Below are positions 5,053 to 32,094 of a DNA stretch of 32,094 nt, piece after piece. Numbering within the stretch: the stretch's first letter is position 1; each line of letters opens with the position of its first letter. The stretch comes from Deltaproteobacteria bacterium (GTDB lineage: Bacteria > Desulfobacterota > DSM-4660 > Desulfatiglandales > B25-G16), in assembly GCA_018400255.1 (NCBI GenBank), contig JAGYMO010000283.1, positions 1 through 32,094 on the forward strand. The letters run 5' to 3'. Position numbers and translations under genes: made by a program. Below the pieces are notes generated by a model. The model was not told where the DNA came from. It worked only from the letters and a program-made list of their open reading frames with translations, and ran no database searches.

Positions 5053-6669
5053 TTATTCAACCTTTTCAAGGCCTGGGGCCTTGATCCCTCGTCGCTCCAA
5101 AAGAGAACCTTCCAGGCGGTAAAACTGAATAAGCGCCTTAAGATAGTCTACTACTGATTGTACTTCGTTTATTTTACTAAGCAGAAGATCACGCTGTGCC
5201 TGCGCCACAAAGAAGTTGGTGGAATGACCTACCCGGAATTTTTCAGCTTCAACTCTAAGCTTTTCCTCTTCAAACCTTCTAGTAGCAGTGCTTGCCGATA
5301 TTTGCTCCCTTGTTCGATTAACCTCGATATAGGCATTTCGAATGTCAAGCTCAATTAACTGTGTGAGGTTGTTTAATGCCATCTCTGCTTGATCACGGCG
5401 GAGCAATGACCTTTGGTGCTGCGCCCTTGCATCACGGTTAAATAGAGGATATTCCAGATTGACACCTATCATCACATCATAGTTTTCCTCAGAGATATCA
5501 TTAGCAGAGTTTACAAAGGAGTCAGAATACCCGGTTTTTCCCAGGGAGATAAAGAGATCCATCCGCGGTAGAAGCCCGTTTTTTGTGCGAACTATTTCAA
5601 GGTCCTTCTGTTTAATTTCTAGTTTCGCCTGATTAATCTCTGGACGTATGCTGGTAGCTAACGATACATGTGATTGAACTTCATCAAGTTCTATGTTTGG
5701 TAGAACAGGGGGATGAACCAAAATGACATCTCTGCTCCAGAGCGAATCACCTAATGGGTTAAGTAACCCGAGCAATTTAAGCCTTGCAGATTCCTGCAGA
5801 CTTCTGGCATTGATTAGTTCCTGTTGCTGGGAAGCCAATTCAGCCTGTAAAGCAGCAAGCTCTGCCTCTGCCATGGTACCTACCTTTATCATCTCTTCAG
5901 TCTCGGCAATCTGCTGCTTTGCGAGCTTTACTGATTCCAGTACAATCTCGATCTGACGCCGGGAAAGGGCATAATCCCAGTAGGCAGTTTCAACCTGTGC
6001 TACCAATGCCTCGCTAAATCCCCGGAGTTCGTATTGGGATATGTCAGTGTCAATTTGCGATTGACGAAGCTGGGCCAGATTAACCTCTGATCCGAATCCA
6101 CGAAGCAGTGACTGGGTGACAGATAGGCCCAAGCGGGTTGATGAAAAGGTTTTGTGATATAAATCAGAATCTGTGGCCTCAACAATAGCATCCGCCTCAA
6201 GAAAGGTACCTGTGGAAAAGAATTTCTTGAGCGAGAGAATTCCCTCATAGGTATTACTGGTTGAATGGCCGCTGTACCCTTCAGGTTGCTTTAACAGTTC
6301 AGCTTTGCTTCTAAGGCCGGAAATTTCAGCTGCTATAGTTGAGTCAAATTCGGCACGTAGTTGCTGCTCAAAGGTTTTTTGAATAAATGGATTCATCTTT
6401 TCCACTGAGAGTGAGCGGTTGTTCTCCAATGCTATGAGTATGGCCTTCGTTGGTGTTATTTTTATTGGCCCTTTTTCCGGTATGTTCAGGGTTTGACTAT
6501 TTTTAGGTTTGATCTCAGCCGATACGTAACTATACTTTGAAGGATAAATAGTAGATGAAATTTTTTCCGGTGTGGTCGATAATTTTTTTGTGGTTACACA
6601 GGATAGTGTTGAAACTAAAAAACTCGCAATAATTACCGCAGATGCGCTTTTAAACAGTAAAATAGACAT
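5053..6669 (-). CDS. TolC family outer membrane efflux protein
   Basis: Signal peptide/lipobox-like N-terminus (STLSCV), paired OEP coiled-coil repeats; last gene of a MFP-RND-OEP operon; start overlaps stop of upstream RND gene. Confidence 0.9.
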   Translation of the reverse strand: MSILLFKSASAVIIASFLVSTLSCVTTKKLSTTPEKISSTIYPSKYSYVSAEIKPKNSQTLNIPEKGPIKITPTKAILIALENNRSLSVEKMNPFIQKTFEQQLRAEFDSTIAAEISGLRSKAELLKQPEGYSGHSTSNTYEGILSLKKFFSTGTFLEADAIVEATDSDLYHKTFSSTRLGLSVTQSLLRGFGSEVNLAQLRQSQIDTDISQYELRGFSEALVAQVETAYWDYALSRRQIEIVLESVKLAKQQIAETEEMIKVGTMAEAELAALQAELASQQQELINARSLQESARLKLLGLLNPLGDSLWSRDVILVHPPVLPNIELDEVQSHVSLATSIRPEINQAKLEIKQKDLEIVRTKNGLLPRMDLFISLGKTGYSDSFVNSANDISEENYDVMIGVNLEYPLFNRDARAQHQRSLLRRDQAEMALNNLTQLIELDIRNAYIEVNRTREQISASTATRRFEEEKLRVEAEKFRVGHSTNFFVAQAQRDLLLSKINEVQSVVDYLKALIQFYRLEGSLLERRGIKAPGLEKVE

Positions 6670-27450: not shown

Positions 27451-28212
27451 TCAAAGGACTGCAACACCCTGTCCACGGAGGTATTCTTTTAACTCTCCGA
27501 TTTCAATGATCCCGAAATGGAATACGGATGCAGCAAGCAAGATTGTAGCACCTGCTTGCACTGCCTGATAAAAATGAAGCAGTTCACCTGCTCCACCGGA
27601 GGCCACCACATCGGCAGAGACCGCACCCTTGATTGCTCTAATCACCGGCAGATCATAGCCGGTCCGCACCCCGTCTCCTGCTTTGCTTGTAGGAAGAATA
27701 ACCGACACGCCGTAACCGTCAACGCGCCTTGCCCACTCGATTGCATCTGCACCGGTTGCTGACCGTCCACCATCAATATAAACTTCATAGCCTGATGGCA
27801 TAGCAGCATTCTGATCTACATCAATGGCCACCGTCACCTTCTCAGGACCCAGCTTTTTAACCATTTCTTTGACCACTTCAGGCCTCCGAAAGGCAGCACT
27901 GCTGGTCGATATTTTGTTTGCTCCTGCTCTGAGCACTAACTCAGCCGATTTTACATCAGATATACCTCCGCCAACAGTGAATGGAACAGTTGCCACTTCG
28001 GCCACACGTTTAACCACGTCGAGCATCGTGGCCCTGCCTTCCACCGTAGCAGTGATATCCAGAAGCGCTAGTTCGTCGGCACCAGTTTCACAATACGCTC
28101 GTGCGCATTCCACAGGATCACCGGCGTCTTGTATGTCAACGAAATGGACACCCTTGACAACTCGTCCGTTCCGCATATCCAGGCAGGGCATGATTCTAAT
28201 TACTTGATCCAA
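27451..28212 (-). CDS. hisF: imidazole glycerol phosphate synthase subunit HisF
   Basis: IRIMPCLDMRNGRVVKGVHFVDIQDAGDPVECA, VGGGISDV, AIDVDQN, VVASGGAG, LLAASVFHFG. Confidence 0.92.
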   Translation of the reverse strand: MDQVIRIMPCLDMRNGRVVKGVHFVDIQDAGDPVECARAYCETGADELALLDITATVEGRATMLDVVKRVAEVATVPFTVGGGISDVKSAELVLRAGANKISTSSAAFRRPEVVKEMVKKLGPEKVTVAIDVDQNAAMPSGYEVYIDGGRSATGADAIEWARRVDGYGVSVILPTSKAGDGVRTGYDLPVIRAIKGAVSADVVASGGAGELLHFYQAVQAGATILLAASVFHFGIIEIGELKEYLRGQGVAVL

Positions 28213-28471: not shown

Positions 28472-28888
28472 CTAACCCTTTATTGCTATGTTGTTTTCCC
28501 GGCACCATGCTTTCAGTGCCGCTTGCTGCCTGTTGTTTTCGAATTCGTACCAATCTTTTAGGACGCCCCTTCTTTCCAGAAGATCTTTATATCTTGAATA
28601 TGCGCCCCTTCGGCGAAAAATTCCATAAACCTTATCCAGCTCTTCCGGCAAGTATTTTGATGTGAATTCAATTACCAGGGGCTTGCCAAGATCGAGTGCA
28701 TTTTTATGAGGTATGGTTATGTACTTATCGGGATCATCGATGTCTTCCGGAAGCTCATCAAAATCAGCCATTTCAGAGGCATAGAATATTTCTCCTGTTT
28801 CCTTGCACAGGTAGGCGCTATTCATATACGGCTGATCCATACTTGCAAATAAGAATGCATTTTCAATATCATCAAATAAAACAGCCAT
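28472..28888 (-). CDS. UPF0158-like protein
   Basis: AYLCKETGEIFYASE...PEDIDDPDKYITIPHKNALDLGKPLVIEF...KVYGIFRRRGAYSRYKDLLERRGVLKDWYEFEN. Confidence 0.8.
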   Translation of the reverse strand: MAVLFDDIENAFLFASMDQPYMNSAYLCKETGEIFYASEMADFDELPEDIDDPDKYITIPHKNALDLGKPLVIEFTSKYLPEELDKVYGIFRRRGAYSRYKDLLERRGVLKDWYEFENNRQQAALKAWCRENNIAIKG

Positions 28889-29136
28889 AAGATATTCATC
28901 TTTTTTGAGGTTAACAGTAAAACTGTAACAGGGGACATCAAATTATAAGGCGTATTGTATCTACACAGCCACGAAGACATGAAGAAAAGATTGATATCGC
29001 TATAACAATGCACATATGTGATCAGGTTTTCTCACTGCTATTACTGCACCGCATATCAAGGAGGCCCATCCATGCAGTAATTTCATACTCTTTGTGGCTT
29101 AATGCCTTTGCGGCACTATACCTGAGTGGCTGCGAT

Positions 29137-29622
29137 TTATTCGTATTCATCATCGTATTCATCATCGTATTCATCATCATAGTCTGGATATTGAGGTGGA
29201 GATTCGCCAACTGCATTGATTACTTTAATATGCTTCTTCTTAGAATTAGTTTCAGTAATTTTTTGTACCTTAATTCGATGCCACCAATCATCACCAAAAT
29301 CAAAAAGATAATGAAAAACATCCTTCTCATTCAAACTGACATCACCGATTCGGGTCTTGGTTGTCGGTTCTTTCATTTTTTCAAAACCCATTATATCCTC
29401 TACACTCATCGGGTGCGTTATTTCCGGTGCATCATAAATGTCCCTTATGTTTTTGGTATCTTTCCTGGTGATGAAAAATGAATAAAGGTGCTCATCGTAT
29501 CTGTCGAATGCCTGGAAAATCGCTTCATGAAAATCATCAAAGGTGCAATTCTCGGAAGCTTCAATTATTCGATATAAATTTGGTATCCCTATTATAGACA
29601 CCCTGAACTGATATATCTTCAT
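29137..29622 (-). CDS. plasmid pRiA4b ORF-3-like protein with acidic DDEY repeat tail
   Basis: YQFRVSIIGIPNLYRIIEASENCTFDDFHEAIFQAFDRYDEHLYSFFI...FHYLFDFGDDWWHRIKV; C-terminus DDEYDDEYDDEYE. Confidence 0.85.
   Translation of the reverse strand: MKIYQFRVSIIGIPNLYRIIEASENCTFDDFHEAIFQAFDRYDEHLYSFFITRKDTKNIRDIYDAPEITHPMSVEDIMGFEKMKEPTTKTRIGDVSLNEKDVFHYLFDFGDDWWHRIKVQKITETNSKKKHIKVINAVGESPPQYPDYDDEYDDEYDDEYE
29143..29178. repeat. 12-bp tandem repeat GTATTCATCATC x3
   Basis: Direct reading; encodes DDEY units at the C-terminus of the pRiA4b ORF-3-like protein. Confidence 0.95.
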
Positions 29623-29650
29623 TTCTTCATTCCTATGCAGTTAACGTTGC

Positions 29651-29693
29651 GCGTAACGGGCAACAAGGGCATATGCGGCATTGCCTTGGTGCC
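29651..29693 (-). repeat. attC-like imperfect inverted repeat
   Basis: GCGTAACGGGCAACAAGGGCATATGCGGCATTGCCTTGGTGCC; arms GGCAaCAAGGgCAT / reverse complement of GGCAcCAAGGcAAT; lies upstream of the minus-strand gene 29137-29622. Confidence 0.35.
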
Positions 29694-29871
29694 ACTCCTT
29701 TAATTGCCCTGATTATACCAGACCAATATCGGATTGACAATAGAACATGTTGTTGCTCTCATAACGCAAAGCTGAATCTGGGCTCATTACGGAAGCTGGA
29801 TAAGACTCAAAGGATGACGCCTCTTGTTGCCCCCTTGATGCGCTTCTTGTATGCCTATCCCTGATTTAAAC

Positions 29872-30123
29872 TTATAAAGTAGTTTTTGGTAAAGCATTCA
29901 AGGAAGATACAAACTTTTTCTGATCGTATGGTCTGCCTTGTTTCAGAATTTCGAATATCTCGGATGCTACAACAATCCCGATCAAATTCTTTGCTTCCTT
30001 TTCGGTATAGCCTTCAGTGATTAACCGATTGAATGTTTGCTTTGTTTCAGGAGGATCATTCCCATTGATCTGGTTCTCAACTACTTCCATAATTGCAGCA
30101 TTCAGAATTTTGCTCTTCTTCAT
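29872..30123 (-). CDS. small hypothetical protein (83 aa)
   Basis: Intact ORF with plausible soluble helical sequence; occupies the space between two attC-like repeats. Confidence 0.65.
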   Translation of the reverse strand: MKKSKILNAAIMEVVENQINGNDPPETKQTFNRLITEGYTEKEAKNLIGIVVASEIFEILKQGRPYDQKKFVSSLNALPKTTL

Positions 30124-30159
30124 TCAAAGTCTCCAATACATATAGGTGTATAAGGGCCT

Positions 30160-30209
30160 GCGTAACAGGCCGGCATTGCAACGTAGCGGAAAACCCGGCC
30201 CTTGTTGAC
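30160..30209 (-). repeat. attC-like imperfect inverted repeat
   Basis: GCGTAACAGGCCGGCATTGCAACGTAGCGGAAAACCCGGCCCTTGTTGACC: GTAACA--GGCCGG pairs with CCGGCCCTTGTTGAC with two unpaired bases on one arm. Confidence 0.4.
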
Positions 30210-30293
30210 CAAGGTGTTATTTTTCAGGCTGTTCCGTTTGTGCCAGAATTCAATAAAGGCATTTCGGTCAATCAATTTTTCATTTATACCAAC

Positions 30294-30590
30294 CTACTGC
30301 TTTTGCGATTCTTCCTGTTGTATTTGACGGAGCCTCTTGTTCATACCTTGAATTCCTATCGGTAGAAGAATACCGTATGGAAGCCATAGGAGCCATTTAT
30401 ATGGAAATGCAAGAAATAAAAGAAGGGTTATGAAAATAATACCAAAAACCCAAAAGATTACCGATGCCTTTATAATGAATGTCCGTTCTTTTGGGCCATG
30501 TGTGTTTTTAATGCTGAAATAGGTTCCGATAGCTCCTCCAGCCACACCGATAATGCCGCCTATAATTCCACCAATTAAACCAGCGTTCAT
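30294..30590 (-). CDS. small membrane protein, hypothetical
   Basis: Gly-rich first TM (GGIIGGIIGVAGGAIGTYF) plus two further hydrophobic segments; intact ORF. Confidence 0.65.
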   Translation of the reverse strand: MNAGLIGGIIGGIIGVAGGAIGTYFSIKNTHGPKERTFIIKASVIFWVFGIIFITLLLFLAFPYKWLLWLPYGILLPIGIQGMNKRLRQIQQEESQKQ

Positions 30591-30609
30591 TTTTTACCTC
30601 TCTATTCTG

Positions 30610-30661
30610 TGCTAACGCTGAATTGTGCGGTGCGGCTTTTTGCATCCGCACCCGTGACATC
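30610..30661 (-). repeat. attC-like / hairpin element between brnA-like and membrane-protein genes
   Basis: Minus strand GGTGCGG-ATGCAAAAAG-CCGCACC hairpin followed by CACAATTCAGCGTTAGCAC (R'-like GTTAG core); left half lacks a recognisable R'' core. Confidence 0.3.
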
Positions 30662-30686
30662 TTTTGCTTCATTTGATCATTTGATA

Positions 30687-30953
30687 TTAGTGACGTAGTT
30701 CCGCGTTAATTTTTTCAGAAATAAATATTTTCAATAGTGACTGGTAAGGAATATCACGTTTGTTTGCGAGTACTTTCAACTCTTCAATCATTGATTCAGG
30801 CAAACGAAGGGATATTGATCTGGTTGAAGGTTTCAACTTCGGCAAAACCGTCTCTTCGGCATCAGACCAATCCAGGCATTCTGAAGAATCGGGTTCTTGC
30901 CAAAAAAGCCGCTCCTCAGGTTCATCTTTAAGTTTGGGTATTTTCTTTATCAT
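30687..30953 (-). CDS. BrnA-like / CopG-type antitoxin
   Basis: C-terminal ribbon-helix-helix-like STRSISLRLPESMIEELKVLANKRDIPYQSLLKIFISEKINAEL; ATGA overlap with preceding BrnT remnant. Confidence 0.8.
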   Translation of the reverse strand: MIKKIPKLKDEPEERLFWQEPDSSECLDWSDAEETVLPKLKPSTRSISLRLPESMIEELKVLANKRDIPYQSLLKIFISEKINAELRH

Positions 30954-31078
30954 TTTTTATGCCTTTCTATTTCCGACTCGGTCATGTACCGTGCAGAAAT
31001 GATCCTGATTTTCTCATTTCGAACGGTGAATACTGCAAAAAGCAAGCGATCTATATTTGTCCGACCGCGATAATGCGG
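30950..31078 (-). pseudogene. BrnT-family toxin C-terminal remnant
   Basis: Minus-strand reading PHYRGRTNIDRLLFAVFTVRNEKIRIISARYMTESEIERHKK* ending in ATGA overlap with the antitoxin start; in-frame TGA directly upstream (31079-31081). Confidence 0.75.
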
Positions 31079-31151
31079 TCAGCCCTTGAAATTTGAAAAA
31101 ATTGTAATTGCTCGCTAGTTTATTTCTCTAATCTTACTATATAGTTTTGCT

Positions 31152-31760
31152 TTATAACTTTAGGCCTATTTCCCAAGCCTTGCCTAGGTACTTATTTTTT
31201 TTCCGCTTGAGATTTAAGAATCGAGAGTCAGTAAATACTATTTTACTGATGACTTTTGCTTTAATCTTGCGAGTATAATGGTTCATCGCCCTCAATGTAT
31301 TTTTGCTTTCATCCATAAGTAGATTAAAAGGCCACGGTGTCGTACAAGAGGTAATAAATATTGCCTTTTTGCCTTCCATGCGCGCACGAGGCCCAAAACC
31401 AAGCGGGAGTTTCTTGCCAAATAATTCCTTACCCTCACCATGGGACATCGCTAATCCACATTGCCTGTCAAAAAATGTTTTCATAATACCCGAAACATTA
31501 GACCAATATGTTGGAGAAGCAAGAACCAGCACATCTGCATCTTTTACTTTTTCAAAAATCAAATTAAAATCATCTTTTAATACGCATTTTCCATTCCTTT
31601 CGCATGACCAACAACCAAGGCAATAATCTAGTTTATAGTCATATAGGTTTATTAGACTCGTCGTATGTCCGTTGGCCTTAGCGCCTTCTAAAACTTTACT
31701 TGCTAAAGCACTTACTAGTCCATTTTTTCTTTTTGTGCCGACGATAGCTAACAGATTCAT
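31152..31760 (-). CDS. NAD(P)H-dependent FMN reductase / flavodoxin-like oxidoreductase
   Basis: MNLLAIVGTKRKNGLVSALASKVLEGAK, CLGCWSCERNGKCVLKDDF, VLASPTYWSNVSGIMKTFFDR. Confidence 0.9.
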   Translation of the reverse strand: MNLLAIVGTKRKNGLVSALASKVLEGAKANGHTTSLINLYDYKLDYCLGCWSCERNGKCVLKDDFNLIFEKVKDADVLVLASPTYWSNVSGIMKTFFDRQCGLAMSHGEGKELFGKKLPLGFGPRARMEGKKAIFITSCTTPWPFNLLMDESKNTLRAMNHYTRKIKAKVISKIVFTDSRFLNLKRKKNKYLGKAWEIGLKL

Positions 31761-31782
31761 TTTTTATTTTTTATCTCCTTAA

Positions 31783-31841
31783 CGTCTAAGGAGCAAGTCA
31801 GCCGCGCGGTTTTTGCGTAAACTGAATTTGCCATGTTATGC
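31783..31841 (-). repeat. 59-bp attC-like element (putative integron recombination site)
   Basis: Minus strand GCATAACATGGCAAATTCAGTTTACGCAAAAACCGCGCGGCTGACTTGCTCCTTAGACG: outer TAAC/TTAGAC-type ends, inner GCAAaTTCAG pairing CTGACTTGC with an extra base; begins 8 nt after a stop codon and lies upstream of the next gene. Confidence 0.5.
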
Positions 31842-31848
31842 ACCAATT

Positions 31849-32094
31849 TTAATGCTTTCTACACTTTAGATATAATGCTTTTGTTTTCTCTCCTATAAGT
31901 TGAATGTCATCCACCGTGAAACCAGCGCTTTTCACAAGGGCAGAAAATCCATCGGGAGATATGCTGCTTCGCACATGACGCGGTGGTATACCCAATTGCT
32001 TAAGATACCTTATACCTAATTTTATTTTTTCAAAAAAGCTCATACCATAACCCGTATAGTCTACAGCAAGCAACAGACCTCCAGGTTTTAAAAC
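31849..32094 (-). CDS. class I SAM-dependent methyltransferase, C-terminal part (5' end beyond window)
   Basis: Minus strand reads in from the window edge as VLKPGGLLLAVDYTGYGMSFFEKIK...GFSALVKSAGFTVDDIQLIGEKTKALYLKCRKH*. Confidence 0.75.
   Translation of the reverse strand, partial: VLKPGGLLLAVDYTGYGMSFFEKIKLGIRYLKQLGIPPRHVRSSISPDGFSALVKSAGFTVDDIQLIGEKTKALYLKCRKH

Follow-up and report, generated by a model that had tools for sequence, protein, structure and literature searches.

The last 3.6 kb of contig C283 (28472-32094, reaching the contig end at 32094) carry a run of small genes on one strand, which a preliminary description took for a possible decayed integron-like cassette array. This raises the question of whether these genes came as integron cassettes or were brought together in some other way. 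We analysed the region as part of the window (the whole 32,094-nt stretch, contig C283), which comes from a draft genome of 393 contigs that is about 90% complete. The features of the region are the following:

28472-28888, minus strand: UPF0158 gene (Pfam UPF0158), a putative distal cassette
29081-29136, minus strand: repeat-like segment at the expected position of the pRiA4 attC, 79% match to G001:C34
29137-29622, minus strand: pRiA4b ORF-3-like gene, a cassette (Pfam 3e-23)
29639-29700, minus strand: site 1, with R' G^TTAACT at 29639-29645 and an upstream half not recognisable as attC
29872-30123, minus strand: gene for an 83-aa hypothetical protein, a cassette gene in other genomes
30160-30210, minus strand: attC site 2, possibly a compact variant, with R'' GGTCAAC and R' GTTACGC
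30294-30590, minus strand: gene for a 98-aa small hydrophobic protein, no family assigned
30610-30655, minus strand: site 3, half attC, which keeps the central stem (30627-30649) and R' GTTAGCA (30610-30616)
30687-30953, minus strand: BrnA-type CopG antitoxin gene (Pfam CopG_antitoxin 7e-29)
30953-31096, minus strand: BrnT toxin remnant (tblastn with the BrnT of G026)
31152-31760, minus strand: NADPH-dependent FMN reductase family gene (Pfam FMN_red 9.7e-22), cassette start G^TTAAGG
31777-31841, minus strand: attC site 4, decayed, with R'' GCATAAC at 31835-31841 and R' GTTAAGG at 31777-31783
31787-31792, minus strand: TCCTTA, 6 nt inserted between L' and R' as judged by pairwise alignment with the attC of contig C130
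31849-32094, minus strand: methyltransferase gene cassette, truncated by the contig end to its last 81 aa (3' end)

The minus-strand open reading frames that had been claimed are present, and the families given to them earlier (UPF0158, PRiA4_ORF3, CopG_antitoxin/BrnA and FMN_red) agree with Pfam. The list of seven genes had to be amended, since the methyltransferase is represented by its C-terminal 81 aa only, the contig end cutting the gene, and since the BrnT remnant before BrnA had been left out. All cassette genes lie on the minus strand, which is the attC orientation, mostly with one gene per cassette. The set of genes differs greatly from one relative to another rather than being invariant, each gene of the region being sporadic and present, at the thresholds used, in 0-7 of about 118 genomes. 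The methyltransferase family is also found in four same-family relatives and the FMN reductase has homologs in 6 of the 118 relatives, all of them distant (≤40%), while homologs of the 98-aa protein are absent from the 118 relatives; this protein has no NCBIfam match and its TauE signal falls under the Pfam cut-off. Homologs of the 83-aa gene are flanked or followed by attC in G006 (locus L135) and G064 (L136), the cassette of G006 having a start, GTTATAAT, that complements its own R'', and BrnA homologs lie near attC sites in loci L131 and L132. Among the genomes compared, homologs in a cassette context were not found for the FMN reductase, 98-aa and UPF0158 genes; a 74% homolog of UPF0158 in G040 has no attC nearby, and in the window attC was recognised on neither side of this gene. 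A search of a plasmid collection with the region gave no matches. The product of hisF (27451-28212) is 82% identical to the copy in G023, a member of another family, and at most 59% identical to those of same-family relatives, which suggests that this gene may have been acquired by horizontal transfer. Where the array ends on the left could not be set by synteny with G023, since hisF alone is common to both at the DNA level.

The four imperfect inverted repeats with GTTA cores are indeed found at 29651-29693, 30160-30209, 30610-30661 and 31783-31841, and GCGTAAC and GGCATTGC are common to sites 1 and 2, as had been described. The proposed folding check failed, the energies of the four spacers being not above those of dinucleotide shuffles (p = 0.10, 0.39, 0.12 and 0.12). 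Since shuffled sequence folds equally well, we dropped folding energy as evidence; the inverted repeats alone prove nothing, and it is the homology breakpoints described below that carry the case. The folding result, together with the repeat-like segment at 29081-29136, is what would be expected if illegitimate recombination had assembled an ordinary island of accessory genes, the inverted repeats being either terminators or copies of a dispersed repeat, a reading to which we return once the breakpoints have been given.

An attC model exists for Deltaproteobacteria (PMC8352920), a group with sedentary chromosomal integrons. For the present genome a simple R''/R' pattern scanner produced many false sites across the window, and a covariance model was therefore adopted instead. 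An integron integrase scores above the curated cut-off in 50 of the 118 relatives; the array side of 20 of these 50 was taken, and attC sites were found there on the expected strand. Model R1 was built from 12 aligned short attC sites (11 from the intI-side loci of relatives and the twelfth from contig C15 of this genome) and model R2 from 45 R1 hits, the window being used in neither. With R1, attCs score 22-57 bits in relatives and 20-47 bits on five other contigs of this genome (C15, C130, C374, C373 and C143); R2 gives 28-58 bits on these contigs, partly by construction, since sites there trained it. When the window was scanned with R2 (filters off, both strands, all 32 kb), the top two hits were sites 4 and 3, both on the expected minus strand: site 4 at 31784-31841 (14.4 bits, E 0.29) and the centre of site 3 at 30627-30649 (11.2 bits, E 1.7, model positions 19-42). 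Taken alone these hits are weak evidence for attC, the best scores in the window being 14.4-14.6 bits versus 20-58 for preserved sites. Sites 1 and 2 were missed by R2 in the whole window on both strands, no attC is recognisable between the FMN reductase and BrnA, and an Rfam scan of 26-32 kb returned chance matches only.

At the junction between the methyltransferase and the FMN reductase, positions 1-293 of contig C130 of the same genome are 92% identical (293 bp) to window 31798-32089 on the minus strand, comprising the end of the methyltransferase and the attC, and the similarity ends at R' (GTTA), with the breakpoint at 31783-31780. On C130 the attC is in good condition (42.7 bits by R1 and 57.9 by R2), the start of the cassette there complements its own R'', and related attCs occur in other genomes. 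Compared with C130, the TCCTTA insertion breaks the normal spacing of site 4. Both C130 and C283 begin inside the common methyltransferase cassette, and this duplication probably explains the assembly break at the contig end. In locus L121 (G005:C160, ~5530-5640) a methyltransferase homolog is followed by an attC-looking sequence, TATAAC...CGTTATAC, which is unrelated to the window attC and on which the attC model makes no call.

At the junction between the 83-aa and pRiA4 genes, the pRiA4-like gene is 82% identical (DNA, 492 bp) to a cassette gene of G067, and the similarity starts exactly at TTAACTGC, one base past the crossover G (29645/29644, G^TTAAC). In G067 the gene is followed by an attC (L118:652-712, 24 bits) and then by a BrnT/BrnA-type pair, as read from translations, and the opening bases of this cassette are complementary to the R'' that belongs to it (GCAGTTAAC), as circularisation would lead one to expect. 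In the window the R'' that belongs to the cassette itself has been lost or lies off the contig. The 3' flank of the pRiA4 gene in the window was considered as an attC missing only TTAA, and this was abandoned because the segment also matches the repeat-like stretch of G001; the attC model gives no hit at 29081-29136. This segment contains ACCTGAGTGGCTGCG, a motif with one other match in the genome, on C151.

At the junction between the 98-aa and 83-aa genes, site 2 recurs in G044:C54 (HGW-Deltaproteobacteria-15) with 86% identity over 59 nt, between unrelated same-strand genes (acetyltransferase-like and methyltransferase-like, read from translations). The similarity runs about 10 nt beyond R'' and stops at R' (30160-30166), which is the asymmetry to be predicted for an attC that moves along with its upstream cassette. 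In G044 the copy of the site forms a long hairpin when folded. It is conceivable, if rather doubtful, that site 2 and its homolog represent a compact attC variant (~51-55 nt, R' GTTACNC) missed by the usual models and used by the integrases of this lineage; were this true, some "empty" spacers in such arrays would be unrecognised attC sites.

Homology thus breaks within a few bases of the crossover point G^TTRRRY in three of the four flagged spacers. For the accessory-island reading these three independent breakpoints at R' would be a coincidence: we estimate the chance of three breaks within 3 nt at about 1e-4, for uniform breaks in spacers of 89, 170 and 249 nt. Further, a pattern scan of the species collection found one other copy only of site 2, which is therefore not a dispersed repeat, and we consider such an island extremely improbable. 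Sites 4 and 2 are placed among attC by homology and site 3 is a half site, the direct model scores being weak. The decayed cassette array proposed earlier is supported and, the folding part excepted, withstands the refutation set out for it: for two of the sites there are homologs with attC behaviour in other places, gene content varies among relatives, and three junction breakpoints fall at the crossover base.

The decay is real. At the junction between BrnA and the 98-aa gene, site 3 has lost its R''/L'' arm, with the central stem and R' (CGTTAGCA) left. The BrnT remnant matches residues 53-100 of the G026 BrnT (60% identity, E 4e-17, tblastn); in these 48 residues there is an in-frame internal stop, and the first 52 of the 100 residues are lost. 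We weighed whether the array could nevertheless be active and functional, with its distal tail only on C283 and with sites that look weak through divergence from the model. In favour of this, C283 breaks off within a cassette on the attI side, C130 shows how well an attC can be kept, and site 4 retains R'' and a pairable L box. The 6-nt insertion before R' in site 4, the missing R''/L'' half of site 3, the broken BrnT and the state of the integrase, whose best match in the genome is half a gene beside ISL3 transposase pieces, make an active array very improbable.

As the preliminary description had noted, there is no integrase open reading frame in the region, the contig itself stopping at 32094. 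The contig end lies inside the duplicated cassette, on the attI-proximal side of the region, where an integrase would lie; since the array would run on beyond 32094, the absence of intI is a statement on C283 only. Integron integrase matches in the genome are fragments only, on C349 and C15. The best is the N-terminal half on C349 (profile 5-141), which scores 168 bits with TIGR02249, 101 with a second integron-integrase model and ≤74 with XerA, XerC and XerD models, and ends just before pieces of an ISL3-family transposase. In this locus (L007, G000:C349, 3134-4126) the integrase has an N-terminal extension and is truncated after LFECLDLRV beside the broken transposase. A second scrap (profile 1-59) is found on C15, where an integrase N-terminus adjoins attC-bearing cassettes in the usual divergent layout (L008, G000:C15, 1091-1273 and 2156-3358). 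Together with C15, the five other contigs with attC sites include C130, C374, C373 and C143 (L068, L069, L070 and L071), cassette contigs of which several carry toxin-antitoxin genes (MazF-like, ParE).

We therefore read the region as the worn distal end of a cassette array belonging to a chromosomal integron, with a probability of roughly 0.9, on the breakpoints at R', the attC homologies, the attC-bearing contigs elsewhere in the genome and the sporadic genes that we observed. As in sedentary chromosomal integrons, the accessory genes lie on the same strand with attC between them and joints at G^TTRRRY, and the attC follow the GGCTAATTCAGCCGAC...GGCTGATTAGC type, which relatives have as well, but most attC in the region are degraded and intI is not on the contig. 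CALINs are clusters of attC sites that have no integron integrase (IntegronFinder 2.0, PMC9024848); the degradation of integrons has been proposed as one source of them (PMC9024848, PMC8618304), and draft genomes inflate their counts (PMC9024848). The region resembles them in that its cassettes bear attC and no intI is linked to them on the contig. It differs in that one attC only nears detection with the in-lineage model, besides those supported by homology, IntegronFinder 2 requiring two recognisable attC (PMC9024848), and in that the contig is truncated on the intI side.

In the process that we envisage, an integron integrase would have inserted each gene, in the form of a circular cassette, at G^TTRRRY, so that the genes would point the same way, away from an attI and intI that, we infer, lie beyond 32094. 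The attC sites would then have decayed through point changes, the 6-nt insertion, half-site loss and repeat invasion, with loss of recombination activity; excision and shuffling of these cassettes are probably slow or dead, and the genes would remain as ordinary chromosomal cargo. Recognisability of the sites falls towards hisF, which would fit an older array end, four sites being too few for the claim of a gradient.

Knowledge of integrons is unchanged by this region, a real but ordinary example. It offers one worked case of cassette fossilisation, in which one site is reduced to half, a spacer has gained an insertion and an antitoxin has outlived its toxin. It also illustrates that an array with attC sites mostly below detection is still recognisable when breaks in homology are compared with the position of the crossover base.
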